NCBI GenBank assembly: GCA_919902505.1
Contig: CAKKRE010000021.1
Location: 43,674-107,673, forward strand
DNA: 64,000 bases
Origin: Nitrospiraceae bacterium
GTDB taxonomy: Bacteria; Nitrospirota; Nitrospiria; Nitrospirales; Nitrospiraceae
Direction of reading: 5' to 3'
The notes under the pieces are model-generated. The model was not told the origin of the DNA and made no database searches. It worked only from the letters and a program-made list of their open reading frames with translations. Positions 36,397 to 51,439 of this stretch are shown one piece after another (position 1 is the first letter of the stretch; each line of letters begins with the position of its first letter). The translations under genes were made by a program, and so were the position numbers.

Positions 36397-37359
36397 CTAC
36401 TCCTTCGTCAGTGACACCTTCGCTCCCGCGTCCTCCTGGGCATCCTGCGCGCAACGGAATCCCATCCAATTGATCTTGGTCTTGGGATCGGTGCCGTTCC
36501 GCATTGCCGCCCGCATCGTAGTGGTGCTATCCATCCATCCACCGCCACGGAACGCTTTCTGCGTGCCGGTCTCCGGCCCTTTCGGGTTCCGGCCCGGCGA
36601 CTTCTTGTAATAATCCTGGTCGTACCAATCGGAGACCCACTCGGACACGTTCCCGATGGTTTGATAGAGACCATACGGACTCACGGCATTGTCGTACCTG
36701 TCGACGGAAATGATCGGTGGATAGAGCAACAGCCGCTCCGGACGATCCCGCACGGGACCGGACAATCCGGTTCTGCCGAAATTGGCCCGGGTCGGACCGG
36801 CATATTCACTTCCCCACGGGAATAGTCTGCCATCCACTCCACGCGCGGCCTTCTCCCACTCGGCCTCGGTCGGCAACCGCTTGCCCGCCCATTTGCAGTA
36901 CGCGTCAGCGTCGTACCAGCTGACGTGCATGATCGGATGATGCGCCATCGTATCCTGGAAGTTTCCTCCGTCGTACCGCCAATCCAGCTGCGGCAGACGA
37001 TCCGTAGCCAGGACAAACTTGAGATACTCGAGCGCCGTGACTTCGTACTTGCCGATCATGAACGCGTCCAGATACACCGACCGCTGCGGAATTTCGCTCC
37101 GGTACGCCAACCGATCCGCCTTCTTATCGCTCCCCATGAGGAACTCGCCGGCTGGAATGAGGACCATGTCTTCCTTGGTCTTCCACTTTGCGACCCGCTC
37201 CTGCGCGAGCTTCTTGCCTTCCTCGGTCCACTCGATCACGATGTCCTGTGTATCCAACGCCCGTGCGGCAGGAGCCAGCGCAAACAGCGCGGCTCCGATC
37301 AACAGAGCCTGCCTGGCTAGTTTTCCCCTCCGTGAGACATTCCTTCGTTGTTTGTTCAT
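36397..37359 (-). CDS. exported SUMF1/FGE-fold protein lacking catalytic Cys
   Basis: 320 residues with an export signal (GKLARQALLIGAALFALAPAARA). The FGE-sulfatase fold is clear from MVLIPAGEFLMGSD, KRLPTEAEWEKAARG, GNVSEWVSDWYD and FRGGGWMDS. True FGE has a catalytic Cys pair after the RGGS motif; here the segment reads RGGGWMDSTTTMRAAMRNG with none. It is therefore probably a structural or metal-binding relative, like PvdO. It is the last gene of the multicopper oxidase neighbourhood. Confidence 0.8.
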   Translation of the reverse strand: MNKQRRNVSRRGKLARQALLIGAALFALAPAARALDTQDIVIEWTEEGKKLAQERVAKWKTKEDMVLIPAGEFLMGSDKKADRLAYRSEIPQRSVYLDAFMIGKYEVTALEYLKFVLATDRLPQLDWRYDGGNFQDTMAHHPIMHVSWYDADAYCKWAGKRLPTEAEWEKAARGVDGRLFPWGSEYAGPTRANFGRTGLSGPVRDRPERLLLYPPIISVDRYDNAVSPYGLYQTIGNVSEWVSDWYDQDYYKKSPGRNPKGPETGTQKAFRGGGWMDSTTTMRAAMRNGTDPKTKINWMGFRCAQDAQEDAGAKVSLTKE

Positions 37360-37377
37360 CCTCGGCCTCCTCCTCTC

Positions 37378-37446
37378 CTAGCTATCAGCATTCAGCGATC
37401 AGCTTTCAGCAACAGCTCCTGGCTGACGGCTGATAGCTGACTGCTC
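37378..37446. repeat. R2 palindromic repeat overlapping a gene end
   Basis: The sequence ctatcagcattcagcgatca ... gctgacggctgatagctgac is made of the R2 unit in two orientations. Its left part is read as the last ~16 codons of the second SUMF1-like gene. Confidence 0.65.
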
Positions 37447-38315
37447 GCTGTGATTGATGTTGCGCAACGAAACCCTGTCAAATAACTCCAGTGATCCAGC
37501 CCCCCAGCATTACGCCCGGCCGACCGGGCCACCTCGGGATCTTCATTCCATGATCCTCCGCGAAACACTTTGTCCTGCCCGGATTCAGGCCCCTGGGGAT
37601 TGCGATTCCCCTGGCGCCGGTAATACTCCGGATCGAACCAATCAGAGACCCACTCACTCACATTGCCGGCAAGCTGATGCACCCCGTAAGGACTCACGCC
37701 GTTGTCGTAACGATCCACATTCGCGAGCGGCGGATACTTAGCGCCGCGCTTCGAACCGGAATGGGCAATGTTGCTCTTGATCCAGCCGGCCGGCTCATTG
37801 CCCCAGGGAAACATCCGTCCGTCTTCACCACGAGCCGCCTTCTCCCATTCGGCCTCGGTGGGCAAACGAGCCCCCCGCCAGCGGCAATAGGCATCGGCTT
37901 CCCGCCAGGTCACGCCGATCACCGGATGTTTGGCCATCTTCTCCGGGAACGGCTGTGCCCTCCAGTAATGCGGCCAGGCCGCGCCGGTTGCCAACACATA
38001 CCGCAGATAGTTCACGTTGCTGACCTCGTAGCGGTCGATGCTGAACGCATCCACATAGACCTGGTGCTGAGGCAGCTCCTGCGGCCCCGCGGCCCGATCG
38101 AACTTCGGATCGCTACCCATCAGAAACGGGCCGGCCGGCACCGGCACCATCCCGTCCGGCGCCTCGATCAACGCCAGCCGCTCGACATCATCGAGCGGGG
38201 ACCAGAGCGGCGGCGGCTTCGGCAATTCATGGTCGGCATGAACAAGGCCGTGAGGCAGCACGCTCATCAAGAGCACCGCTGCCATCACGATGTTGATGCT
38301 TACTGTTCTGGTCAT
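37392..38315 (-). CDS. exported SUMF1/FGE-fold protein with repeat-encoded tail
   Basis: 307 residues, paralogue of the gene downstream. The signal peptide is MTRTVSINIVMAAVLLMSVLPHGLVHA. FGE-fold landmarks are MVPVPAGPFLMGSD, ARLPTEAEWEKAARG, GNVSEWVSDWFD and FRGGSWNEDPEVARSAGRN; again no catalytic Cys pair. The conserved end is GFRCATS; the following SSQLSAVSQELLLKADR is encoded by an R2 repeat and is unlike the family, so the original stop was probably lost. The gap to the next gene is 32 bp. Confidence 0.8.
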   Translation of the reverse strand: MTRTVSINIVMAAVLLMSVLPHGLVHADHELPKPPPLWSPLDDVERLALIEAPDGMVPVPAGPFLMGSDPKFDRAAGPQELPQHQVYVDAFSIDRYEVSNVNYLRYVLATGAAWPHYWRAQPFPEKMAKHPVIGVTWREADAYCRWRGARLPTEAEWEKAARGEDGRMFPWGNEPAGWIKSNIAHSGSKRGAKYPPLANVDRYDNGVSPYGVHQLAGNVSEWVSDWFDPEYYRRQGNRNPQGPESGQDKVFRGGSWNEDPEVARSAGRNAGGLDHWSYLTGFRCATSITASSQLSAVSQELLLKADR

Positions 38316-38324
38316 GGCCGCTCG

Positions 38325-38396
38325 GCTTTCAGCTCTCCGCAGTCAGCCCCCGCAATCAGAGACTGACTGCCGATTGCTGACTGCTTCCGTCCCCTT
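38325..38396. repeat. R2-type repeat between genes
   Basis: Units such as ctttcagctctccgcagtca and tgccgattgctgactgcttc show the R2 pattern in both directions. It fills the gap between the SUMF1-like gene and the copper-protein-like gene. Confidence 0.55.
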
Positions 38397-39386
38397 TCAA
38401 TGACCCTGCTTTTTGACCAGCGGATCGATTTCCTTCTTCGCTTCCTCGGTCACGTTATAGCGGGCATACGCATGGTCCAGGACCTCATTGGCATAGAGCC
38501 GCCCGGTCGGCGCCGGGACCCCGATCATGGCCTCAACGGTGCCCTTCGGACCGATGGTGACGGTTTGTTCCGTCGCCGTCCTGATATAGGGATGCCAGAC
38601 GACCAACTTATAGGTGCCCGGCGGCACATCGGTCATGGTGAACCGGCCCTGTTCGTCCGTCTTGGCAAAGTAGGGATTCATGATAGCCACGCCCCAGCTC
38701 TCCATGTAGGCATGGAAACCGCACTGCATGACAAAGATCCGGCGGTTTTTGCTGAGTTTCACCAACTCTTTCATCGGCGGACCGGCCATGTGTTTGTGAT
38801 ACATCCCAGCCTCGGTACGGTCCTTGAAATTGCGCGGATGCTGCGGATTCATCGGCAGCGGCACGTTGAACAGAACACGCGCGCCCAAATTCGACGTTTC
38901 ATAGGCCTGAATGTCGTGCATCACCGGATCCATGTTGACGACCGTGACCGACTGATCGTCCCGCACGACGGTCGTAAACGGCAGGAACAGGCAATCCTTC
39001 GCCTCTATTTGCGGCACTTCTTTCTCAGCGAACGGTTTTCCCTTCTCAATCCCCTCCAGATACACGACGACTTCACGAAACTCGCCTCTCGGTCCGACGT
39101 TGAACGGTTGCAGAATGCGCCAGCCTTCCCCGTCGGAAATGCGCCCGCAATAGAACGGGTCCGGCAGTGTGGTGAGGTTGTACCCTTTCGGTTTCGGGAC
39201 TGTCCCCTCCAACTTCACGATCCCCGTCAGTGTCCCGCCATCCGATACAGTAACTTCTTCATAGGCTGACACAGGACTGCTCGCGAGAGACGATGCGAGA
39301 GCAACCGTAGCCAACCCCAAGACCCACCCGAAACAACTCTTCTTCATCGCCTGCTGCTGACGCTTCGTTGTAGTACCCAGTGTCAC
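38397..39386 (-). CDS. exported cupredoxin-like protein with C-terminal carboxypeptidase-regulatory domain
   Basis: 329 residues if started at the GTG at 39386, which has GAGGAGG six bases upstream; the ATG at 39347 is an alternative. After the signal peptide comes a cupredoxin-like domain with NMDPVMHDIQAYE and, later, VMQCGFHAYMESW, giving a His, Cys, His, Met set suited to a type 1 copper site. Residues ~245-290 (DEQGRFTMTDVPPGTYKLVVWHP) are a carboxypeptidase-regulatory beta-sandwich. It is a likely electron partner of the giant multicopper oxidase upstream. A terminator separates the two genes. Confidence 0.72.
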   Translation of the reverse strand: MTLGTTTKRQQQAMKKSCFGWVLGLATVALASSLASSPVSAYEEVTVSDGGTLTGIVKLEGTVPKPKGYNLTTLPDPFYCGRISDGEGWRILQPFNVGPRGEFREVVVYLEGIEKGKPFAEKEVPQIEAKDCLFLPFTTVVRDDQSVTVVNMDPVMHDIQAYETSNLGARVLFNVPLPMNPQHPRNFKDRTEAGMYHKHMAGPPMKELVKLSKNRRIFVMQCGFHAYMESWGVAIMNPYFAKTDEQGRFTMTDVPPGTYKLVVWHPYIRTATEQTVTIGPKGTVEAMIGVPAPTGRLYANEVLDHAYARYNVTEEAKKEIDPLVKKQGH

Positions 39387-39474
39387 GTCCGGCCTCCTCT
39401 GTGATTGGTCCATGGTGCGATCGACTGATACCATCGATCATACAGGGAAGCCATCACGTTTTTCTTCCCCCGAG

Positions 39475-42500: not shown

Positions 42501-44489
42501 ATTCGGAGCGGTGCTTTCCCGCTCACCGCGAGCGATGTTGCCGTCCCACTTCCAGTCCCACACCGTCGAATCGTAGGCCATGATCTGGCCCTTTTCATCA
42601 TTGGTGTGGCCCGGCTGACCCTGGGCCGGAACAAACATCTCGACCCAATCCTTGATGTTCACGATCACAGGATCGGACTTCCAGTTCGTCTTCTGGCTCT
42701 TGTCGACGATCTTGAAGGTCTTGCCGAACCAGTCGACCGTGCTGCCGATCAACTTATCCGACGAAACACCCTGCTTCATACGGCCCAGACGATCCGGCAA
42801 CTCACGCATATCCGGCATCGTGTCGGTATGCGCTGCACCGACCTGCAACGTATTGTAGAACCGGCCGTACCCCCACATGCCCGCCACATAGTGGTGCGCG
42901 ACGTGGCAGTGATAGAGGAACTCGCCGGCCAGGTGCTGACAGCCACCGCCGCCGCATTCCGGTTCCAGGTCGAGCGCTTCGGACGGACCAACCACTTCCA
43001 CGTCCACCCGATCGGACTTCGTCCGGACCACCGGATACTTCACCGGACCGTCCTGTCCCTTAAACCAATGCTCTTCCTGATCGGCACGCGGGCTGCGCTG
43101 CCAACGGATGGTGCCGCTGTGCGGATGGTGGGAGTGGAACACTTCCGATCCACCATGCACCAAACGCCACTTGACCGGATCACCGAGGTAGCCACGGGCC
43201 ACCGTGGTGGGCGGGTCACCGAAGGTGTAGGCGCTGTAGGCCAGCGACTCATCTTCGAAGCCGAAATATTCATGCTGCAAGTGCATCTGATCGATGCCGA
43301 ACGGCTCGCTGCGATAGTTGATCGCGCGGCCACCCGGACGATAGGCATCGGTCAACGGATCGCGCTGCGGCAAGAAGTCACCCTTCTTGTTCAGCGGACG
43401 GAACGCTTCGTCGCCGATCTCGTGATAGAAGAGCACGAATTCGCGGAAGTCCGGTCCGGATCCGTTGTCGATCATGACCTCCCATCCACCGTCGATCTCG
43501 GGCGCGGCGCCCGTTCCGAGCGGATCGAGGTACTTGGAGCCCTTCGGTTCGACGATGAAGGCACCGAAGAGGCCCAACACCGTCAACTCGCGATCATGAC
43601 TCCATGAGTGGAACTGCCGCACACCTTCCTGCATCTGCGGATGGATGTACCATTCGAACTCCTGCGCCTTGCCCGGCGAGACTACCGTGTCCGGGTTCGT
43701 CGTCGTCGCAGGCTTCCCGGTGGCGCTTACGATCATGCTGGAAGCTGCGATGACCAAGCTACCGTCCTCACCCTCCATCTGATTGCGCAGCGTCATCTTG
43801 ACGCAATCGCCCTGGTTGGCACGAAGCACCAGCGGCTGAATCGCATCGCCCTGGTTGCCGGTCGTCACCGCGCCAGGATCGAATCCGTCCTTTTCGCGCG
43901 CTTCCTTGTTCTTGGTTTCCTCAGCGCGAACCTTGTCGATTTCCCCGGTGTGGACGTACATATAGCCGGGATAGAAGTCGAGCCAGCGGTTCAAGCTGAT
44001 TTCGATGTTGATCATCGACACGTCGTACTTCTTCACCGGCGCATTGGCGGGACATTTCCCCCCTGACGTCATCACCGGTTCGCCCTTCGACGAATCGGAC
44101 GCCAGCAGGAAGCTGCTCCCGTCCTGTCCCATATACTGGTGCATCATCGACATTTCGTTGAATGCACCGGAAGTCTGCTGCGCCTTCGCGTCCGTCTGCG
44201 CCTGTTGTTCCAACTTCTCCATCAGGCGGTGGTGCTGCATCTCCATCTTTTCTGCATTCCCGGCACGACCCTCCATGGCGTTTTCCACCACGGTCTGACC
44301 CTTCAGGGTCTGGGTCCAGCCCGGCATGGCGACAGGCGTCGCATGTCCATCATGCGACTGATCGCCCGGCCCGGCCGCAAATACCCACGGCGCCGCGAGC
44401 AAACTGCCCGATAGCAGCGCCGCCTGCAGGCTCAGCATCGCCTTGCGACTGATGCGCCTGCGCTTTGACACATGCACTGAAGACCTCAT
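39549..44489 (-). CDS. giant three-module multicopper oxidase
   Basis: 1646 residues, start ATG after AAGGAGGGAGG, Tat-like exported N-terminus (SKRRRISRKAML). Three related modules begin at about residues 143 (KCPANAPVKKYDV), 737 (LCPDNANRKHYNI) and 1250 (VCPSDAPVKSFNV). Each shows an LRAN-x-GDC strand and an EP/GPKGS-x-Y-x-DP turn. Copper motifs are spread: HSHHPHSG (~450) and HCHVAHHYVAGM (~525) at the end of module 1, IHPHFFQF (~829) and FWHDHAFG (~973) in module 2. Module 3 has lost nearly all. So one full set of four motifs exists, in the order C, D, A, B. Size and order recall the MnxG-type Mn oxidases. The substrate is unproven. It is probably periplasmic or secreted. Confidence 0.85.
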   Translation of the reverse strand: MRSSVHVSKRRRISRKAMLSLQAALLSGSLLAAPWVFAAGPGDQSHDGHATPVAMPGWTQTLKGQTVVENAMEGRAGNAEKMEMQHHRLMEKLEQQAQTDAKAQQTSGAFNEMSMMHQYMGQDGSSFLLASDSSKGEPVMTSGGKCPANAPVKKYDVSMINIEISLNRWLDFYPGYMYVHTGEIDKVRAEETKNKEAREKDGFDPGAVTTGNQGDAIQPLVLRANQGDCVKMTLRNQMEGEDGSLVIAASSMIVSATGKPATTTNPDTVVSPGKAQEFEWYIHPQMQEGVRQFHSWSHDRELTVLGLFGAFIVEPKGSKYLDPLGTGAAPEIDGGWEVMIDNGSGPDFREFVLFYHEIGDEAFRPLNKKGDFLPQRDPLTDAYRPGGRAINYRSEPFGIDQMHLQHEYFGFEDESLAYSAYTFGDPPTTVARGYLGDPVKWRLVHGGSEVFHSHHPHSGTIRWQRSPRADQEEHWFKGQDGPVKYPVVRTKSDRVDVEVVGPSEALDLEPECGGGGCQHLAGEFLYHCHVAHHYVAGMWGYGRFYNTLQVGAAHTDTMPDMRELPDRLGRMKQGVSSDKLIGSTVDWFGKTFKIVDKSQKTNWKSDPVIVNIKDWVEMFVPAQGQPGHTNDEKGQIMAYDSTVWDWKWDGNIARGERESTAPNPKYTWAAKWDDSTRPAILFDPTTGKMAWPLFKPHFGKRVPFSANHSGAPWLEPIHQDANGERTSEPAMPGEQGRWSLCPDNANRKHYNIHFVRMPITLAKKQGKEPAMVDKDGLIYVLHEEERLTRANDDLKLPAVIRANVYDCVDLLLTSEWDDDDYTNFQSSKINIHPHFFQFDTGNSDGVISGMEYEMSVRPFTMWGKKTKHGLPAPMVAKLTGEAKAGATAMKIQMAPGAALFHPNTELMVGMDCLEKGNDPAASLPRDKSCQEVVRIKEIKGDQITFFKPLKHNHPAGDLVSPEFVRYRWWVDVDMGTVFWHDHAFGATTWPHGGFGVTIVEPFGSTYHDPKNGKLVYSGPIADIHSNEPIGAGVSGSFRELMVSIHDTVPHTVNVIEAGNPPGQPIEVALEAGKTVSFQMPDKILNAPNKYINGGTHTTGSGFNFRAAPFAQRLSNNPDTSKLFSSAIHGDPGTPLLRAYTGDTMVFRLLHQLMNESHVWTIAGHTFLTERYAPEANRKNSIHVGIAERYDLVTKAGGFQGMPGDYIHFNGRTSHFAEGGWGIIRVLDKEVADLKPLPRGTNPLGIPATPNSVCPSDAPVKSFNVVALDRPMKLNPKAPDAIEVDFERKIEMTMPEGKIFALEEEAATVAGNVMPNPLTLRANLGDCLKVNLKNKMKASRASFFAPGLAFDPKDSQGLNVGNNAGDQTVAPGESRTYTYYAHPSNKETTSLVWDGGNIVVNPRNGLYGAIVIGPKGSQYRDPVTGADVSQKNVWRADVIVDTTLSENAGKRNYRDVALFFQDEDNIIGTAFMPYVQNVAGLTSVNYRAEPYKFREEQGCSLGKIFQPCAVDKPEDPVTPLIEAHAGDALRIHVIGANSEQNGMFSVEGHEWPIEPYMAGADMISVVEYAGSETLDVFIRGGAGGPYRQVGDFVWSNARLPYTQSGQWGYLRVLPTGDARIQPLSASGAGARQAEVLPEPQAIPTAMK

Positions 44490-44717
44490 ATGTCGGCCTC
44501 CCTCCTTGATAATCCCGCGCCCTTCCGCGGGAGTGGTTAAAAAGCGTGGTCGTGTGACCGGCCTCCGTCAGGCAGGACCCCGGCTCCTCCGGCCTCTCCT
44601 TTTTCCCTCCACGAAACGCTCCCAAAAGGAAAAAGGGCTGGTGAAGGATGTCCTCAAAGTTCGAGGGAGCAGGTCATTCGGAGGCCGGTCCTAATCACCC
44701 GCACCTTCACCAGCACT
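44490..44717 (-). ncRNA. structured mRNA leader of the multicopper oxidase (candidate cis-regulator)
   Basis: The expected transcript has a ~228-base leader. Inverted pairs are CTGGTGAAGG (44704-44713) with CCTTCACCAG (44638-44647), GACCGGCCTCCG (44679-44690) with CGGAGGCCGGTC (44556-44567), CCTTTTTCC with GGAAAAAGG (44598-44636), and CCCGCG with CGCGGG just before the ribosome site. The first two pairs interleave, so they form either a pseudoknot or alternative states. It does not match a riboswitch class I know. Confidence 0.5.
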
Positions 44718-44728
44718 GCGGCTACAAC

Positions 44729-44743
44729 GCAATTGATGTGCCC
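44729..44743 (-). promoter_or_regulatory. sigma-54 promoter of the multicopper oxidase
   Basis: On the minus strand the sequence GGGCACATCAATTGC matches TGGCAC-N5-TTGC with only the first base different and exact -24/-12 spacing. The oxidase start is 240 bp downstream. A sigma-54 activator gene lies immediately upstream. Confidence 0.78.
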
Positions 44744-44849
44744 ACTAGTGGAATTTCTCACTCACAGGATTTTGCACGCGTTATGAAGGTGTTAGGCAAT
44801 GATGTAGGAAAAATTAACCGGGCGTGAAATGCCACAGTTTTCCAGACGA

Positions 44850-44910
44850 TTAGACAGCACACCTCGATACCGACATGAACACTTAAAATACAACTACTTA
44901 GACTGTCTAA
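44850..44910. promoter_or_regulatory. candidate enhancer sites for the sigma-54 activator
   Basis: A perfect palindrome TTAGAC-T-GTCTAA lies at 44898-44910 and a half site TTAGACAG at 44850-44857, about 110-170 bp upstream of the -24 element, the usual distance for NtrC-type enhancers. Confidence 0.6.
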
Positions 44911-44923
44911 ATAGATGGACATC

Positions 44924-44935
44924 AAATCATGATTT
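44924..44935. promoter_or_regulatory. palindrome AAATCATGATTT upstream of the oxidase promoter
   Basis: A perfect 12 bp palindrome, unlike the TTAGAC site, in an AT-rich patch between activator gene and promoter. It may bind a second regulator or belong to the enhancer. Confidence 0.35.
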
Positions 44936-45065: not shown

Positions 45066-46469
45066 CTACTGAATGCCGAGCTCGTGCAGCTTGTTGTAGA
45101 GACTGGCCCGACTGATTTTGAGCACACGGGCCGCTTGCACTCGATTCCCGGAGGTCTGCTGCAATGCCTGCAGGATACGAGCCCGCTCGGCCTGTCGCGC
45201 CGCGCCCCGGCCGACCGTCCTGAGGTCGGTATCCTGAGGGTGACTCCCCAGTTCGACCAGATCCGCACAGGTCAGCTCCGTATGGGTCGTGGTCACCACG
45301 GCTCGCTCGATATAATGCTGCAGCTCACGAACATTCCCGGGCCAGGGCGCAGCGGTCAAGGCACGCATGGCCTCTTCGCTCACCTGACGCAGGTCCTGCC
45401 GATGCCGCTGGCAGGAGTCGGCAATAAATTTTTCGACCAAGAGGGGAATGTCCACCCTTCGGTCACGGAGCGGAGGCAAATGAACAGGCAACACGGCCAG
45501 CCGATAGTAGAGGTCCTGACGAAACGCCTTCGCCTTGACCAAATCGGTCAGATCCTTGTTGGTGGCAGAAATGACACGGACATCGATCTTGACCGGCTGC
45601 GTCCCGCCGACTCGCTTAATCTCGCCTTCTTGCAAGACGCGAAGAAGTTTAGCCTGGAAGGTCGGAGAGGTATCGGCAATCTCATCCAGAAAGATCGTGC
45701 CACCGTCGGCCTCTTCGAACAGACCGGGCTTGGCCCCGGCCGCTCCGGTAAAGGCGCCTTTGACATGGCCGAACAGCTCACTCTCCAGCAACGTTTCCGG
45801 GAGCGCCCCGCAATCGACCACCACAAACGGCTTGTCGCGACGGTAGCTCGTCTGGTGAATAGTCCGGGCCACGAGTTCCTTTCCCGTGCCGCTTTCACCC
45901 TGGATCAACACCGTGGCCGAACTGTCGGCCACCAACCGGATCATTTCAAACAGCTGATTCATGGCCGGACTCGCACCGACCAGATCGCCCAATCTCGATT
46001 CGGTCCGTTCCGGACGCGATCGGCCAGGCCTTTGCTGCGACAGCGCCGCTGGAATACTGAGCGGCTCCGACCGCTTGTGAAACAGCACGAGGACCGAGGC
46101 CACTTCTCCTGTCGAGGAGACGAGCGGAAACGCCTGGTGCATGCCGCAGGCAGTCCCATCGCCCGACGTGTTGCAGGAGACCGTGAGTACTTCCCCCGTC
46201 TTAAAAACCGACTCAGCCGGACAGGTCCCGCAGGGGTCTGTCATTTGAACGAAGGACTGAAAACACTTGGCCGGCTTGGCGACCGCAGACGGCTCGCCGG
46301 AGTGCGCCCACGCGGCGTCATTGGCATAGACCACGTTGAGTTCTCGATCTATCACGGCGACGCGGTCCGTCAGCCCGTCAGCCAATTGCTTCAACGCTTC
46401 CAAACGAGCGGCCAAAATCGGATCGGCGAAGGGGGAAAGGGGCGTTACCTGTGAGTGAGATCCGGCCAT
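45066..46469 (-). CDS. sigma-54 activator with Cys-rich PAS sensor
   Basis: 467 residues from the ATG at 46469 (GGAG seven bases upstream). An N-terminal PAS domain ([20 protein letters not shown]) contains CFQSF, DPCGTC and [14 protein letters not shown], six cysteines that could hold a metal, haem or Fe-S cluster. The AAA+ domain has Walker A GESGTGKE, the sigma-54 contact loop GAFTGA in [15 protein letters not shown], and Walker [11 protein letters not shown] Fis-type helix-turn-helix ([20 protein letters not shown]) ends the protein. It probably activates the oxidase promoter directly downstream, sensing redox state or metal without a kinase. Confidence 0.88.
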
Positions 46470-46500
46470 CTCATCACTCCTCATTTCTATGGGAACCACG

Positions 46501-46610: not shown

Positions 46611-47015
46611 TCAGTGCAGCAGTCCATCCTCTGGCCGGCCTCCGGGATGTTGCAGGAGTTGCTTGACCGTCGCTTTGAGCTCCGATAGCCTGACCGGCTT
46701 GTCGAAGTAGGCCGTCGCGCCGTTCTTTATCGCCTCGTCCTTGGTCTGGGCATCACCAAAGGCGGTCATGACGATAATCGGACAACCGGGCACACAGCTT
46801 CTCAATCGATGGACATAGTCGAAACCGCCGGCCGGCATTTTCAAGTCGGTCACGATCAGATCGGGAGCCGCTCGTATGACCGCAGCCAGCCCCTCTTCCC
46901 CGTTGCTGGCCTCGCGCAATTGGTATCCCTCTCCCCACAGCTCATCGCAGAGCAAGCTCCGCATATCCTTATCGTCTTCCACCACCAGTAATACGGCTGG
47001 TGTTCGACTGTCCAC
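46611..47015 (-). CDS. stand-alone response-regulator receiver domain
   Basis: 134 residues, started at the GTG at 47015 behind GAGGG; an ATG at 47042 has no ribosome site. The phospho-acceptor region is LLVVEDDKD ... LIVTDLKMP, with MTAFGD and the Lys in FDKPV. There is no output domain. Its first part (EDDKDMRSLLCDELWGEGYQ) closely resembles the receiver of the NtrC-type gene at 50060, so it probably arose by duplication and may share the kinase between them. Confidence 0.82.
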   Translation of the reverse strand: MDSRTPAVLLVVEDDKDMRSLLCDELWGEGYQLREASNGEEGLAAVIRAAPDLIVTDLKMPAGGFDYVHRLRSCVPGCPIIVMTAFGDAQTKDEAIKNGATAYFDKPVRLSELKATVKQLLQHPGGRPEDGLLH

Positions 47016-47222
47016 GTTCGAACCCTCGGAATAGGTCACCATGGGGACAACACAACGCAAACCATGTGCCACTCGCGCCGGCGCGTGAAAGCGAGCAACT
47101 CCTTGTATTCACTGGACAACTGGACGCGAAGGTTTTTCCAACCAGTAGGTGCATGAACCGGCCTCTGGCGAGAAAGACCCCACCCTCTGAAAAAGCCCTG
47201 TCCCGAAGCGCCACAACGGGAC

Positions 47223-47338
47223 GAGCAGAGCGTATGGCGAATAGCCGATGGCGTATGGCACGAGCGAAGAAAAGAGTCCAACCATTCCCAAGGGCTGTTC
47301 AATCCCAGCCATAAGCTAGATGCCATACGCTATCAGCT
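47223..47338. repeat. R1 palindromic repeat after the kinase gene
   Basis: The left arm gcgtatggcacgagcgaaga and right arm agccataagctagatgccat form an inverted pair related to 26118 and 53031. Its edge supplies the TGA stop of the kinase gene (tatcagct read on the minus strand). Confidence 0.65.
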
Positions 47339-50023
47339 CTTGTCTATCGGTAGGCAAACGGTGAAGGTCGTCCCCCGCTCAGGTTCACTCTCCACCTCGA
47401 TCGTTCCGCTGTGTTCCTCAATGATGCCCTTCACCACCGTCAGACCTAACCCGGTTCCCTTCCCGAACTCCTTGGTGGTGAAAAACGGGTCGAACACCTT
47501 GGCGATCACGTCCCGGGGCATCCCGTGACCGGTATCCGCCACCGACAACCGGACCATGTCTCGGTCCGGCGCCAGTGCCAGCTTCAAGACCCCTCCCCCG
47601 GGCATCGCATGGATCGCATTCATCACCAGGTTGATCAGGACCTGACTCATCTGATCGGCATCGGCATGCACCAACGGGCAGGCGTCGGCGAACGAGGTTT
47701 CCACGCGGATGTTGCTGTGAGACAGGCGTTCCTGGAAAATTTCCAGGTTGTCCTCGATGGTCTGGCGCAAGTCCAAGGCGCGGTGCTCGACCGGACGTCG
47801 CCGGGCAAACGCCAGCAACTGATTCATCACCCGCGTAATTCGCTCGACCTGACTGACGATAGTTTGAAGCCCCTTCCTGACCGGCTCCTCCTTCGTTCGC
47901 TCCATCAGATATTCGGCCCGGCCCAAAATGACGTTCATGGGTGTGCCGATCTCATGCGCCATGCCGGATGCCACGGTTCCCAGTTCGGCCACGCGCTCCG
48001 TCCGACGGAGTTGCGCCTGCAGGCGCTTCCGCTCCGTGATGTCGCTGGCGATGCCGTCGATCCGCAACGGACGGCCTTCGGCATCCTTGATGACCCGCCC
48101 GCGGTCATGCAGCCAACGCAGGTCGCCGTCGAGCCTGACGATGCGATACTCCACATCGAACTCCCCCATGGTCAAGAGGGCCTGTCTCGCCTGTTCCGCA
48201 ATCACGCGATCGTCGGGATGAACGACCTCCAGCCATAACGAGGGCCGGGCCAAAAACGCGTCGGTCGGGCGTCCATAGATCTCCAGCACAGACGGACTGA
48301 CATAAAACAGCGTGGACAGATCCAGCGACGACGACCAGATCACGTCCTCCATCGCCCCCAATAAACTTTGAAGCCGCTCTTCACTCTCCCGCAACTTCTG
48401 CTCGGCCGCTTTGCGCATCGAAATATCCCGCAAGACGACCAGTATGCCGAACCCCTCTTCATCCTGGAACCGGGCGGCCCTGACAGCCACATCCACGCTC
48501 ACCCCGTCCAACCGCACGATCTTTTCCTCGACCTCAGGCACCGTGTTACCGGGCTCCAGGAGATGCCGGATCCGTTCACCGATCAACTCGTGGTAGTCGG
48601 GATGCGCCAGGTCGTACAGCGACTTGCCGAGAATCTCCTCTCCCGACCGGGCCCCGAACAACCGAAGGCCCTGTTCGTTGGTAAAGATGATCCGGTTCTC
48701 CCGGTTAACCAGGATGGCATCCGGCAAGACCGCCAACAGCCGGCGATACCGGTCTTCGCTTTGGCGCAGCAACGCCTCGGCCTTTTTCCACTCGGTCACA
48801 TCGCGCGTCACACCCAAAACCGCCGTAATGGTGCCATCGGCTGATCGCAGAGGCACCACATGCATATCCAGCCACCGGTGAGTCCCCAGAAGACCGACCA
48901 TCTGAAACTCCAATCGCCCCGCTTCCCCTCGCCCTGCCTTACGGACCAGCTCACGGTAGATCGTTCGAAACTCGGCGGTGACCAGATGGCACACATCCCG
49001 TCCGATGATGTCGGCACTGCTCATCACCTCGATCATGGCAAGGCCTGCGGCGTTGATGGTCCGGACGGTTCCATCCAGGTTGAGCAGTTTCACACATTCG
49101 GGCTCGGTCTCAATAATCGCCCGTAACAGGGCCTCGCGTTCCGCCAGCTCCTGTTCGAGCCGTTTGCGTTCGGTAATATCGCGGAGGATGACGGTGTAAT
49201 ACCGCGTCCCTTCCACCGCGATCTGCGAGATCGCGGCTTCGATCGGAAATTCCTCTCCGTCGGCCCGGACCCCCATCACCATGCCCAGCGCGCCCATTTG
49301 GCGCGTCGTGATACCGGAACGGCCGAACGCCCGGATATGCTCATCATGGGCGCTGCGGAAACGCTCGGGAAGCAGTCGATCCAGCGGCCGTCCCAACACT
49401 TCCTCGGCGCTCCACTGAAACATCTTTGCAGCCGCCTGATTGAACAGCACGATCTTGTGCCCTTCGTCGATGGTGATAATGGCATCCATGGCCGAGCGAA
49501 TGATGCCTTCAAAGCGCAGTTTCTCCCCCTGCATTTCTGCTTCAGCACGACGTTGTCCCGCCTCGGCACCCACCACCGCCGCTTCAGCCCGGATACGCGC
49601 TTCCGCCGCTAGAGCCTCTGCGGCCTCAGTTTGATGTGGCTCAGCCCGCGCGGTCGTGAGTGCCTGAGACATCCGGCCGGGACCCACGTCCGGCCTATCC
49701 GGACTAAGCGGGCGACCGGTCACCAATGCAGCCACGGCCCCCATGATCCCGATGCCCAGCAGACGATTGAGCCATGAGGAAAGCGGCAGAGAGCCGGCGG
49801 AGGACGCAAGAGGGCCGATCAGCGCCAGCAACGCCACCAGCCCCATAAAATAGCGGGAAACCTGCCCGAGTGAGGAAGCCGCGATCAGAATGAACGGAAT
49901 CGCATAGAGCAGCCACAGGTCGATCCCGGCGGGCGCCGACAGATCCAGGACGAAGATCCCGACCGTCAGCAGCAATGGAACGCCGTATTCAAACCGCGGA
50001 GATTTCTGATGAAGGGGCTGCAC
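47333..50023 (-). CDS. membrane histidine kinase with four PAS domains
   Basis: 896 residues from a GTG at 50023 with GGGAG upstream. Residues ~12-100 are three to four short helices without a large outer loop. Four PAS domains follow, at about residues 185, 310, 430 and 555. The HisKA box is SGMAHEIGTPMNVILGR, with the phospho-His in AHEIGTP. ATP-binding boxes are NLVMNAIHAM, VADTGHGMP and GKGTGLGLTVV. It lies between the NtrC-type regulator and the lone receiver, its likely partners. Confidence 0.9.
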   Translation of the reverse strand: MQPLHQKSPRFEYGVPLLLTVGIFVLDLSAPAGIDLWLLYAIPFILIAASSLGQVSRYFMGLVALLALIGPLASSAGSLPLSSWLNRLLGIGIMGAVAALVTGRPLSPDRPDVGPGRMSQALTTARAEPHQTEAAEALAAEARIRAEAAVVGAEAGQRRAEAEMQGEKLRFEGIIRSAMDAIITIDEGHKIVLFNQAAAKMFQWSAEEVLGRPLDRLLPERFRSAHDEHIRAFGRSGITTRQMGALGMVMGVRADGEEFPIEAAISQIAVEGTRYYTVILRDITERKRLEQELAEREALLRAIIETEPECVKLLNLDGTVRTINAAGLAMIEVMSSADIIGRDVCHLVTAEFRTIYRELVRKAGRGEAGRLEFQMVGLLGTHRWLDMHVVPLRSADGTITAVLGVTRDVTEWKKAEALLRQSEDRYRRLLAVLPDAILVNRENRIIFTNEQGLRLFGARSGEEILGKSLYDLAHPDYHELIGERIRHLLEPGNTVPEVEEKIVRLDGVSVDVAVRAARFQDEEGFGILVVLRDISMRKAAEQKLRESEERLQSLLGAMEDVIWSSSLDLSTLFYVSPSVLEIYGRPTDAFLARPSLWLEVVHPDDRVIAEQARQALLTMGEFDVEYRIVRLDGDLRWLHDRGRVIKDAEGRPLRIDGIASDITERKRLQAQLRRTERVAELGTVASGMAHEIGTPMNVILGRAEYLMERTKEEPVRKGLQTIVSQVERITRVMNQLLAFARRRPVEHRALDLRQTIEDNLEIFQERLSHSNIRVETSFADACPLVHADADQMSQVLINLVMNAIHAMPGGGVLKLALAPDRDMVRLSVADTGHGMPRDVIAKVFDPFFTTKEFGKGTGLGLTVVKGIIEEHSGTIEVESEPERGTTFTVCLPIDKS

Positions 50024-50059: not shown

Positions 50060-51439
50060 CTACGCGTCTGAGTGTGGTTTGCCTTCGATTTCAGCGAGTT
50101 TCCGGTACAGAGTCTTCCGGTCGATACCCAGGACATGCGCGGCCTGATACTTGTTGCCGCCCGTCTTTTCCAAAATTTTCACGATGTACTCTTTTTCCAC
50201 TTCGTGCAACGGCAGGGTGCGTTCCGCGGCTTCATCGAGAATCCGGCGATCGCCTCGGGAGCCTTGCACCTGCACCGGCAAGTCGTCCGCGCCGATCATG
50301 TCCCCATGGCTCAGCGTGACGGCCCGCTCAATGACGTTCTCCAACTCCCGCACATTCCCCGGCCAGGCGTAGTCGGCCAGCATGGCGAGAGCCGATTCGC
50401 TGATCCCCTTGACCTGTTTGCCTCTGCTGCCGGCGCACTTCTTCAAGAACGCATCCACGAGAATCGGAATATCCTCCCGACGTTCGCGCAGCGGGGGGAG
50501 CCGCAACTCGATCACATTGAGGCGATAGTAGAAATCTTCGCGGAATCGCTTATTCTTCACTTCTTCGGCAAGGTTCAAGTTCGTGGCGGCGATAATACGC
50601 ACGTCCACGGGAATAGACTTGGTCGCCCCCACGCGACGGATTTCCCGTTCCTGAATGGCGCGCAGGAGTTTTGCCTGGAGCATGAGCGGAAGTTCGCTGA
50701 TTTCATCCAGAAACAACGTGCCCTTTTGTGCCTCTTCAAAGAGCCCGCGCTTGTCCATTTTGGCATCTGTAAACGAGCCGCGCATGTGCCCGAAGAGTTC
50801 ACTTTCCAGCAATTGTTCAGGGATCGCGGCGCAGTTCACCGGGACAAACGGCGCATCCCGCCGGTCGCTGTTGTAATGAATGGCCTTGGCGACCAGTTCT
50901 TTCCCCGTCCCGCTCTCTCCCGTGATCAACACGTTGGTCGGACTGTCGGCCACGCGTCGAATCAGATCGAAGACCGCCTGCATCGGCTTGCTCTTACCGA
51001 GAATCTGATGAAAGCTGTACTCCTTATGCACCTCTTTCCGCAGCCGGCTGACTTCGCGCCGGAGCGCCGCTTCCCGAATCGCGCGCTCGACCACCCGCAC
51101 CAGTTCCTCGGTTTTCACCGGTTTGGTCAGATAGTCGCTGGCGCCATGCCGGATTGCCTCGACCGCCGTCTCCACAGATCCGAAGGCCGTCATCAGGATC
51201 ACGCCGATATCGGGATAGCGGTGCTTCACCTCCGCCAACAACTCGGTACCTAACATACCTTTCATGCGGAGGTCGGTCAGGACCACGGCATAGTCTTCCT
51301 CGCTCAGCCGCTGAAGCGCGTCGGCACCGCTGCCGACGCCCGTGCATTGATGCCCGCGGCCCTGCAAGACATCGCACAGCAGGCTGCGCATGTCGGCATC
51401 ATCGTCGACCACCAAGACCGCGCCCCATTCCTCAGTCAT
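50060..51439 (-). CDS. NtrC-type response regulator with altered GAFTGA loop
   Basis: 459 residues: receiver (VLVVDDDADM, Asp in VVLTDLRMKG), AAA+ domain ([17 protein letters not shown]) and a Fis-type DNA-binding end (NKYQAAHVLGIDRKTLYRKL). The loop that contacts sigma-54 reads GSFTDA (GHMRGSFTDAKMD) where the consensus is GAFTGA, so activation may be weak or changed. It is the first gene of the kinase operon, 36 bp before the kinase start. Confidence 0.9.
   Translation of the reverse strand: MTEEWGAVLVVDDDADMRSLLCDVLQGRGHQCTGVGSGADALQRLSEEDYAVVLTDLRMKGMLGTELLAEVKHRYPDIGVILMTAFGSVETAVEAIRHGASDYLTKPVKTEELVRVVERAIREAALRREVSRLRKEVHKEYSFHQILGKSKPMQAVFDLIRRVADSPTNVLITGESGTGKELVAKAIHYNSDRRDAPFVPVNCAAIPEQLLESELFGHMRGSFTDAKMDKRGLFEEAQKGTLFLDEISELPLMLQAKLLRAIQEREIRRVGATKSIPVDVRIIAATNLNLAEEVKNKRFREDFYYRLNVIELRLPPLRERREDIPILVDAFLKKCAGSRGKQVKGISESALAMLADYAWPGNVRELENVIERAVTLSHGDMIGADDLPVQVQGSRGDRRILDEAAERTLPLHEVEKEYIVKILEKTGGNKYQAAHVLGIDRKTLYRKLAEIEGKPHSDA

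Follow-up and report, generated by a model that had tools for sequence, protein, structure and literature searches.

The oxidase locus and its orthologues

The window, meaning the whole stretch of 64,000 nucleotides that was analysed, comes from a Nitrospira sp. close to Ca. N. defluvii (the oxidases are 98% identical). On its reverse strand it encodes a giant multicopper oxidase, whose surroundings are laid out in Table 1. The oxidase matches MnxG (PDB 9bxa) over several stretches (E 2.8e-83) and reaches 108 bits with the MnxG equivalog model (NCBIfam NF041487), which has a curated cutoff of 3100; judged by its sequence, it is distantly related to a manganese oxidase. On the same strand and 5' of the oxidase gene follow, in this order, EBP1, a stand-alone receiver, a multi-PAS kinase and the NtrC-type regulator EBP2. 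On the 3' side (window positions 36397-39434) lie genes for a carboxypeptidase-regulatory-type protein and two FGE-sulfatase-domain proteins, which are kept with the oxidase in many orthologues.

Table 1. Features of the oxidase control region and neighbouring regulatory genes (window positions).
Feature	Position	Strand	Remarks
Giant multicopper oxidase, 1646 aa	39549..44489	-	Distant MnxG relative
Extended Shine-Dalgarno GGAGGCCG and oxidase start codon ATG	44487..44501	-	
Mid-leader element CGGAGGCCGGUC	44556..44567	-	Full 12-bp complement of P2 loop
Leader element AGAGGCCGGA	44588..44597	-	Complementary to P2 hexaloop
Leader RNA, three-way junction P1/P2/P3	44637..44714	-	Covariance model 83.5 bits
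P1 3' strand CCUUCACCAGC	44637..44647	-	Pairs in P1
P3 hairpin CCCUCGAACUUUGAGG	44652..44667	-	Both-side changes in 5/5 pairs, 87% of cells paired
P2 terminal loop GGACCGGCCUCCG	44679..44691	-	Contains anti-Shine-Dalgarno CCUCC
P1 5' strand GCUGGUGAAGG	44704..44714	-	14 nt after -12, predicted ~+1 to +3
Sigma-54 -24/-12 element GGGCAC-ATCAA-TTGC	44729..44743	-	Conserved in orthologues
UAS2 TGTCTAATCGTCTGGAAA, consensus TGTCYA-N6-TRGAMA	44839..44856	-	At least 10/12 in 56/64 orthologues
UAS1 TGTCCATCTATTTAGACA, consensus TGTCYA-N6-TRGACA	44904..44921	-	Overlaps palindrome 44898-44910
EBP1, sigma-54 activator	45066..46499	-	PAS-like domain, AAA+ with GAFTGA, Fis-type HTH (Pfam)
Stand-alone receiver domain	46611..47072	-	Syntenic; Pfam and synteny
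Multi-PAS histidine kinase	47333..50023	-	Syntenic; Pfam and synteny
EBP2, NtrC-type response regulator	50060..51439	-	GSFTDA replaces GAFTGA

The region was compared across 64 distinct upstream regions of orthologues with an oxidase protein identity of 76-100%. This set covers several genera, with diverged intervening sequence, and includes many close relatives; since many of the sequences are closely related, the orthologue counts given below are not independent events. One orthologue (L030, G020:C12:138416-143338) has six in-frame TGA codons across the match and an intact leader RNA, and is either a decayed gene or an assembly error.

Promoter, upstream activator sites and candidate activators

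The initial annotation placed a near-perfect sigma-54 -24/-12 element upstream of the oxidase, preceded by a palindrome and a half site. All three words are found where it located them, and the element is on the correct strand, given that the oxidase runs from 44489 to 39549 on the minus strand. The word at 44743-44729 is thus real, but it has two mismatches to TGGCACN5TTGCW and is no better than chance: allowing up to two mismatches, the window contains 26 matches where 30.5 would be expected, so that taken by itself the motif proves nothing. The promoter and the sites upstream of it gain their significance from conservation across orthologues. The core GGCAY-N5-TTGC is exact in 60 of the 64, with the GG at -24 and the GC at -12 of the sigma-54 pattern TGGCAC-N5-TTGC, and differs at one position in the remaining four.

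Two dyads precede this promoter. UAS1 scores 12/12 against its consensus in 42 orthologues, 11/12 in 21 and 10/12 in one, compared with a best score of at least 11 in 0.06% of shuffled sequences. Its distance upstream of the -24 element is 176-196 bp, and the starts of UAS1 and UAS2 are 65-68 bp apart in 62 of 64 orthologues. Conserved upstream dyads of this kind (UAS1 in 64/64, UAS2 in 56/64) are what an enhancer-binding protein/UAS system is expected to have. The palindrome of the initial annotation, TTAGACAGTCTAA (TTAGACTGTCTAA on the plus strand), occupies 44898-44910, its exact form being single copy in the 4.24-Mb genome, and the half site CTGTCTAA/TTAGACAG occupies 44850-44857. As an operator, the palindrome did not hold up: when TTAGAC-N-GTCTAA was sought upstream of orthologous oxidase genes, it proved not to be kept by the relatives, which retain TGTCYA-N6-TRGACA instead (for example TTGGACAGTCTAA, TAGACAGCGCAA and TAGACAGTGCAA, from orthologues with the site and without the palindrome). 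The candidate functional dyad is TGTCYA-N6-TRGACA (44904-44921 and 44839-44856), and the palindrome, which is out of register with it, owes its existence to the overlap between the right half of UAS1 and an AGTCTAA tail that is conserved in part.

Within its own genome, UAS1 is the sole site with no mismatch, and the motif search found UAS1, UAS2 and promoter together at this locus only; a wider regulon in this genome was rejected on this basis. The C16 site lacks a promoter and lies inside the coding sequence of an apparent repeat-type protein. The genome also encodes a 68% paralogue of the oxidase (G000:C16:321693-326510), and paralogues of this type start without UAS, promoter or RNA in the set examined. 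The promoter and UAS pair are likewise absent from paralogues with 63-71% identity in the same upstream set. Lack of conservation at orthologous loci would have spoken against the initial proposal of a sigma-54 promoter with upstream activator sites driving the oxidase; both elements are conserved across the 64 loci, and the predicted control of oxidase transcription by a sigma-54 promoter and an activator is well supported.

The gene before the oxidase does encode a sigma-54 activator, as annotated: EBP1 combines an AAA+ domain, the GAFTGA loop and a Fis-type HTH. It adjoins the oxidase in most orthologues. Where it is not adjacent (e.g. L044, L047, L050, L051, L068, L070 and L071), the genome encodes a homologue with 64-70% identity at another place and has kept an intact UAS. 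Across 61 relatives, EBP1 (scored by its conserved C-terminal match) is present in 34 of 38 genomes positive for the leader RNA described below, counting the weak match in G054 as positive, and in none of 23 RNA-negative genomes (Fisher p 5e-13, with no correction for phylogeny). At the level of sequence, the conserved promoter, the UAS pair and the co-occurrence of EBP1 are thereby shown. Synteny and co-occurrence with the RNA also support the earlier suggestion that the adjacent activator is the likely partner of the UAS, and EBP1 is probably the protein that binds it. Five Cys residues are kept in 24-25 of 25 orthologues in the PAS-like region of EBP1, only 31% of which is >90% conserved; from these residues we infer metal or redox sensing by this domain. 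EBP2 is syntenic in most orthologues and better conserved than EBP1, and could bind the UAS in its place or jointly with it. That EBP2 rather than EBP1 is the binder nevertheless seems unlikely, considering its GSFTDA in place of GAFTGA, the position of EBP1 nearest to the oxidase and the co-occurrence of EBP1 with the RNA.

A three-way-junction leader RNA

A conserved leader RNA downstream of the promoter had been missed by the initial annotation. It is about 78 nt long in the window and present in every orthologue directly 3' of the promoter; 50 different sequences, 73-79 nt in length, are found among the 64 copies. The P2 loop GGACCGGCCUCCG is identical in 64/64 orthologues, and GGACYGGCYUYY recurs at this position in nearly all 91 aligned RNA copies, while the junction strands vary freely. 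Among 88 distinct sequences, the 11 pairs of P1 are formed in 99.7% of cells and all show both-side changes; for the whole RNA, 94.6% of cells are paired and 20 of 21 pairs show both-side changes, in an alignment that was fitted to the covariance model and leans towards it. None of 500 shuffles of this alignment matched these values, and sliding the partner strand dropped pairing to 39-53%. The first alignment, of 34 sequences and not fitted to the model, has both-side changes in 12 of 21 pairs, and again 0/500 shuffles reached the observed values. Covarying stems across diverse sequences are a hallmark of cis-regulatory RNAs, and the existence of the three-way-junction leader RNA is well supported by these alignments.

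A search of the window with Rfam 15 (4227 families) gave no match above the gathering threshold, the best sub-threshold match being a chance miRNA match (E 4). A known riboswitch or other Rfam family was therefore rejected for the leader, and by this test the RNA is a new family. P1 was also considered as an intrinsic terminator or attenuator and rejected, since on inspection the U tract after it is not conserved. A leader peptide was rejected because the RNA varies in length between 73 and 79 nt among orthologues, passing through all frames, and so has no conserved reading frame.

Covariance-model scans, sampled within Nitrospirota, detected the RNA in 38 of 61 relatives and in 115 of 396 Nitrospirota genomes, all of them Nitrospirales save one weak exception. 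With a second covariance model, it was found in 183 of 236 Nitrospirales genomes, representing 27 of 37 genera. The match in a distant member of the phylum (G115/L197) was rejected, being weak, lacking the loop and promoter and apparently lying in coding sequence. Nearly all fetched matches stand directly 5' of a multicopper oxidase gene on the same strand, and such a steady position before one gene type, here the MnxG-like multicopper oxidase, is characteristic of cis-regulatory RNAs. At the one clear exception (L175, G049:C108, 4112-4186, minus strand), the UAS pair, promoter and RNA precede an outer-membrane beta-barrel-like gene, a possible second target type.

The spacing between promoter and RNA is narrow: 13 or 14 nt separate TTGC from the first base of P1 in 61 of 64 orthologues, and from P1 to the ATG the distance ranges from 111 to 351 nt. 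Transcription from sigma-54 promoters normally starts about 12 nt after the -12 element. The structure would thus begin almost at the 5' end, with no more than a few bases between the predicted transcription start and P1, and this fit supports both promoter and RNA. Among another 80 loci with the RNA, an exact promoter stands 13-16 nt ahead of it in 64. About 15 of the others carry a variant RNA without a promoter at that distance, before paralogues of 48-53% identity (62% in one case), which indicates that the RNA is a separate module. The class-2 variant has UCUGG/CCAGA P1 ends and the loop GGACYGGCCUCCU; its copies (L176 10193-10264, L186-L198) have neither UAS nor promoter at the usual distance and precede oxidase paralogues with 48-62% identity, and in some a TGGAA-N6-TTGC-like element was seen by eye about 35 nt further upstream. 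Because the conserved block sits directly behind a conserved promoter, it could be read as DNA only, an extended promoter or operator without any RNA function. This is highly improbable, as it is contradicted by stem covariation together with length variation, by the strand asymmetry of the model score (83.5 against 22.1 bits) and by the occurrence of the block without a promoter at that position.

Loop complementarity, proposed control and known systems

The P2 loop is complementary to the extended Shine-Dalgarno GGAGGCC over at least 7 bp (7-9 bp) in 62 of 64 orthologues, against a background in which GGAGGCC, common in this lineage, occurs at 54 of 228 (24%) other GGAGG-type sites. An AGGCC(GG)-type element lies at most 75 nt 3' of P1 in 60 of 64 leaders, compared with 13% in shuffles, and a mid-leader complement of the loop of at least 10 bp is found in 43 of 64, compared with 2.4% in shuffles; this long complement is missing from about a third of the leaders. 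L071 has lost both mid-leader complements: relative to its sister L070, GGCCGG has become TGCCAG and AGGCCGGT has become AGCTGGCT, with loop and Shine-Dalgarno intact. In some copies of the class-2 paralogues, the Shine-Dalgarno match is reduced to GGAGG. For the window species, the P1 fold and the alternative with a 12-bp helix between the loop and the mid-leader element are predicted to be 2.3 kcal/mol apart. The P1 fold is the energy minimum in 37 of 50 distinct leaders, and minimum-energy folds contain the loop-Shine-Dalgarno pairing in one species only. As the loop is invariant, this pairing is beyond the covariation test.

We propose that the MnxG-like multicopper oxidase of Nitrospirales has a two-layer control region, in which a sigma-54 promoter with its activator is combined with RNA-based control of translation, and we put the probability of this reading at roughly three in four. 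RNA polymerase-sigma-54 would bind GGCAY-N5-TTGC, and EBP1 would most likely bind TGTCYA-N6-TRGACA and TGTCYA-N6-TRGAMA, about 115-180 bp upstream, opening the promoter upon a signal received through its Cys-rich PAS domain and/or the linked kinase/receiver pathway. The transcript would start within a few bases of stem P1. Its P2 loop GGACCGGCCUCCG could then pair with GGAGGCC, the extended Shine-Dalgarno, and keep ribosomes off, or it could pair with the leader elements AGGCCGG and CGGAGGCCGGU and leave the Shine-Dalgarno free; in this way the RNA would adjust oxidase translation to a signal. The leader RNA may thus control the amount of oxidase made, and competition for the loop is the simplest reading of how the Shine-Dalgarno would be kept free or not.

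Other roles for the RNA have to be weighed against such competition. A conserved fold with an invariant loop that precedes metal-enzyme genes independently of the promoter, with two predicted folds of nearly equal energy for the window species (a difference of 2.3 kcal/mol), would suit a riboswitch in which direct binding of a metal ion or metabolite moves the loop between the leader elements and the Shine-Dalgarno. We regard this as doubtful, considering that the conserved residues sit in a single hairpin loop with an obvious base-pairing partner, that the varying junction strands argue against a classic ligand pocket there, and that the RNA nearly always precedes one gene type, with no transporter or biosynthesis genes to name a ligand. 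In a bolder version, the RNA would belong to a new class of riboswitches, with direct sensing of a metal ion or redox cofactor, and would gate oxidase translation, forming a double lock with sigma-54 and the EBP; this is speculative, and we think it improbable.

CsrA targets combine GGA in a hairpin loop with a GGAGG Shine-Dalgarno. The leader has the same arrangement, and its loop is more conserved than pairing needs, so the P2 hairpin might be the site at which a protein, either a GGA binder resembling CsrA or a dedicated repressor, controls translation or the stability of the mRNA. The 13 invariant nucleotides go beyond the CsrA consensus, and we hold this reading to be rather unlikely. Finally, the predicted 5' end of the transcript coincides with the start of P1, and the C-rich loop is exposed in most predicted folds, as might be expected of a passive 5' stabilizer or of a processed small RNA acting in trans through its CCUCC loop. 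Both seem quite unlikely, given that a passive hairpin has no need of an invariant loop and that loop-complementary leader elements are present in cis in 60 of 64 orthologues.

Nitrospira are suspected of manganese oxidation in drinking-water sand filters because they are abundant there and have MnxG-type genes in their genomes (PMC12070406). Our literature search found no described regulation of a Nitrospira MnxG-type gene, no structured leader of a multicopper oxidase and no Nitrospira cis-RNA. The locus offers a defined promoter, two predicted activator sites, a Cys-rich candidate activator and an RNA element, each separately testable, and knowing what induces the oxidase should give a pointer to its natural substrate. 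The leader RNA would be an addition to catalogues of RNA families, and ligands or binding partners could readily be sought with it.

Several known systems share parts of this arrangement. The oxidase is a sequence relative of MnxG (PDB 9bxa), scoring far below the equivalog cutoff. As in NtrC/NifA-type promoters, there is a -24/-12 element with two dyads about 115-180 bp upstream and an activator with GAFTGA and a Fis-type HTH, although TGTCYA-N6-TRGACA was matched to no described activator. With Shine-Dalgarno-hiding leaders and translational riboswitches, the RNA shares a 5'-terminal three-way junction, a loop complementary to the Shine-Dalgarno and an alternative element upstream of it; it differs from them in that the residues it conserves sit in a hairpin loop and not in the junction, and in having no Rfam match. 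The initial annotation held that few oxidases of this type have a visible set of activator, promoter and sites, but the set is not unique. In Pseudomonas putida GB-1, which belongs to another phylum, the available parts of two reports describe mnxG and mcoA, also encoding large manganese oxidase-type enzymes, with MnxS1/MnxS2/MnxR: PmnxG and PmcoA have predicted IHF and sigma-54 sites (PMC11930936), the sigma-54 activator is required for manganese oxidation, and this activator, MnxR, is a sigma-54 response regulator (PMC11409713). Given this precedent, the sigma-54 layer is already known in kind. The Nitrospira locus differs in its adjacent orphan PAS-type EBP, upstream of which stands a second regulator of the NtrC type, and in its leader RNA, of which the available parts of the GB-1 reports make no mention (PMC11930936, PMC11409713). 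The RNA family is the new part, and the added interest of this locus comes from it.
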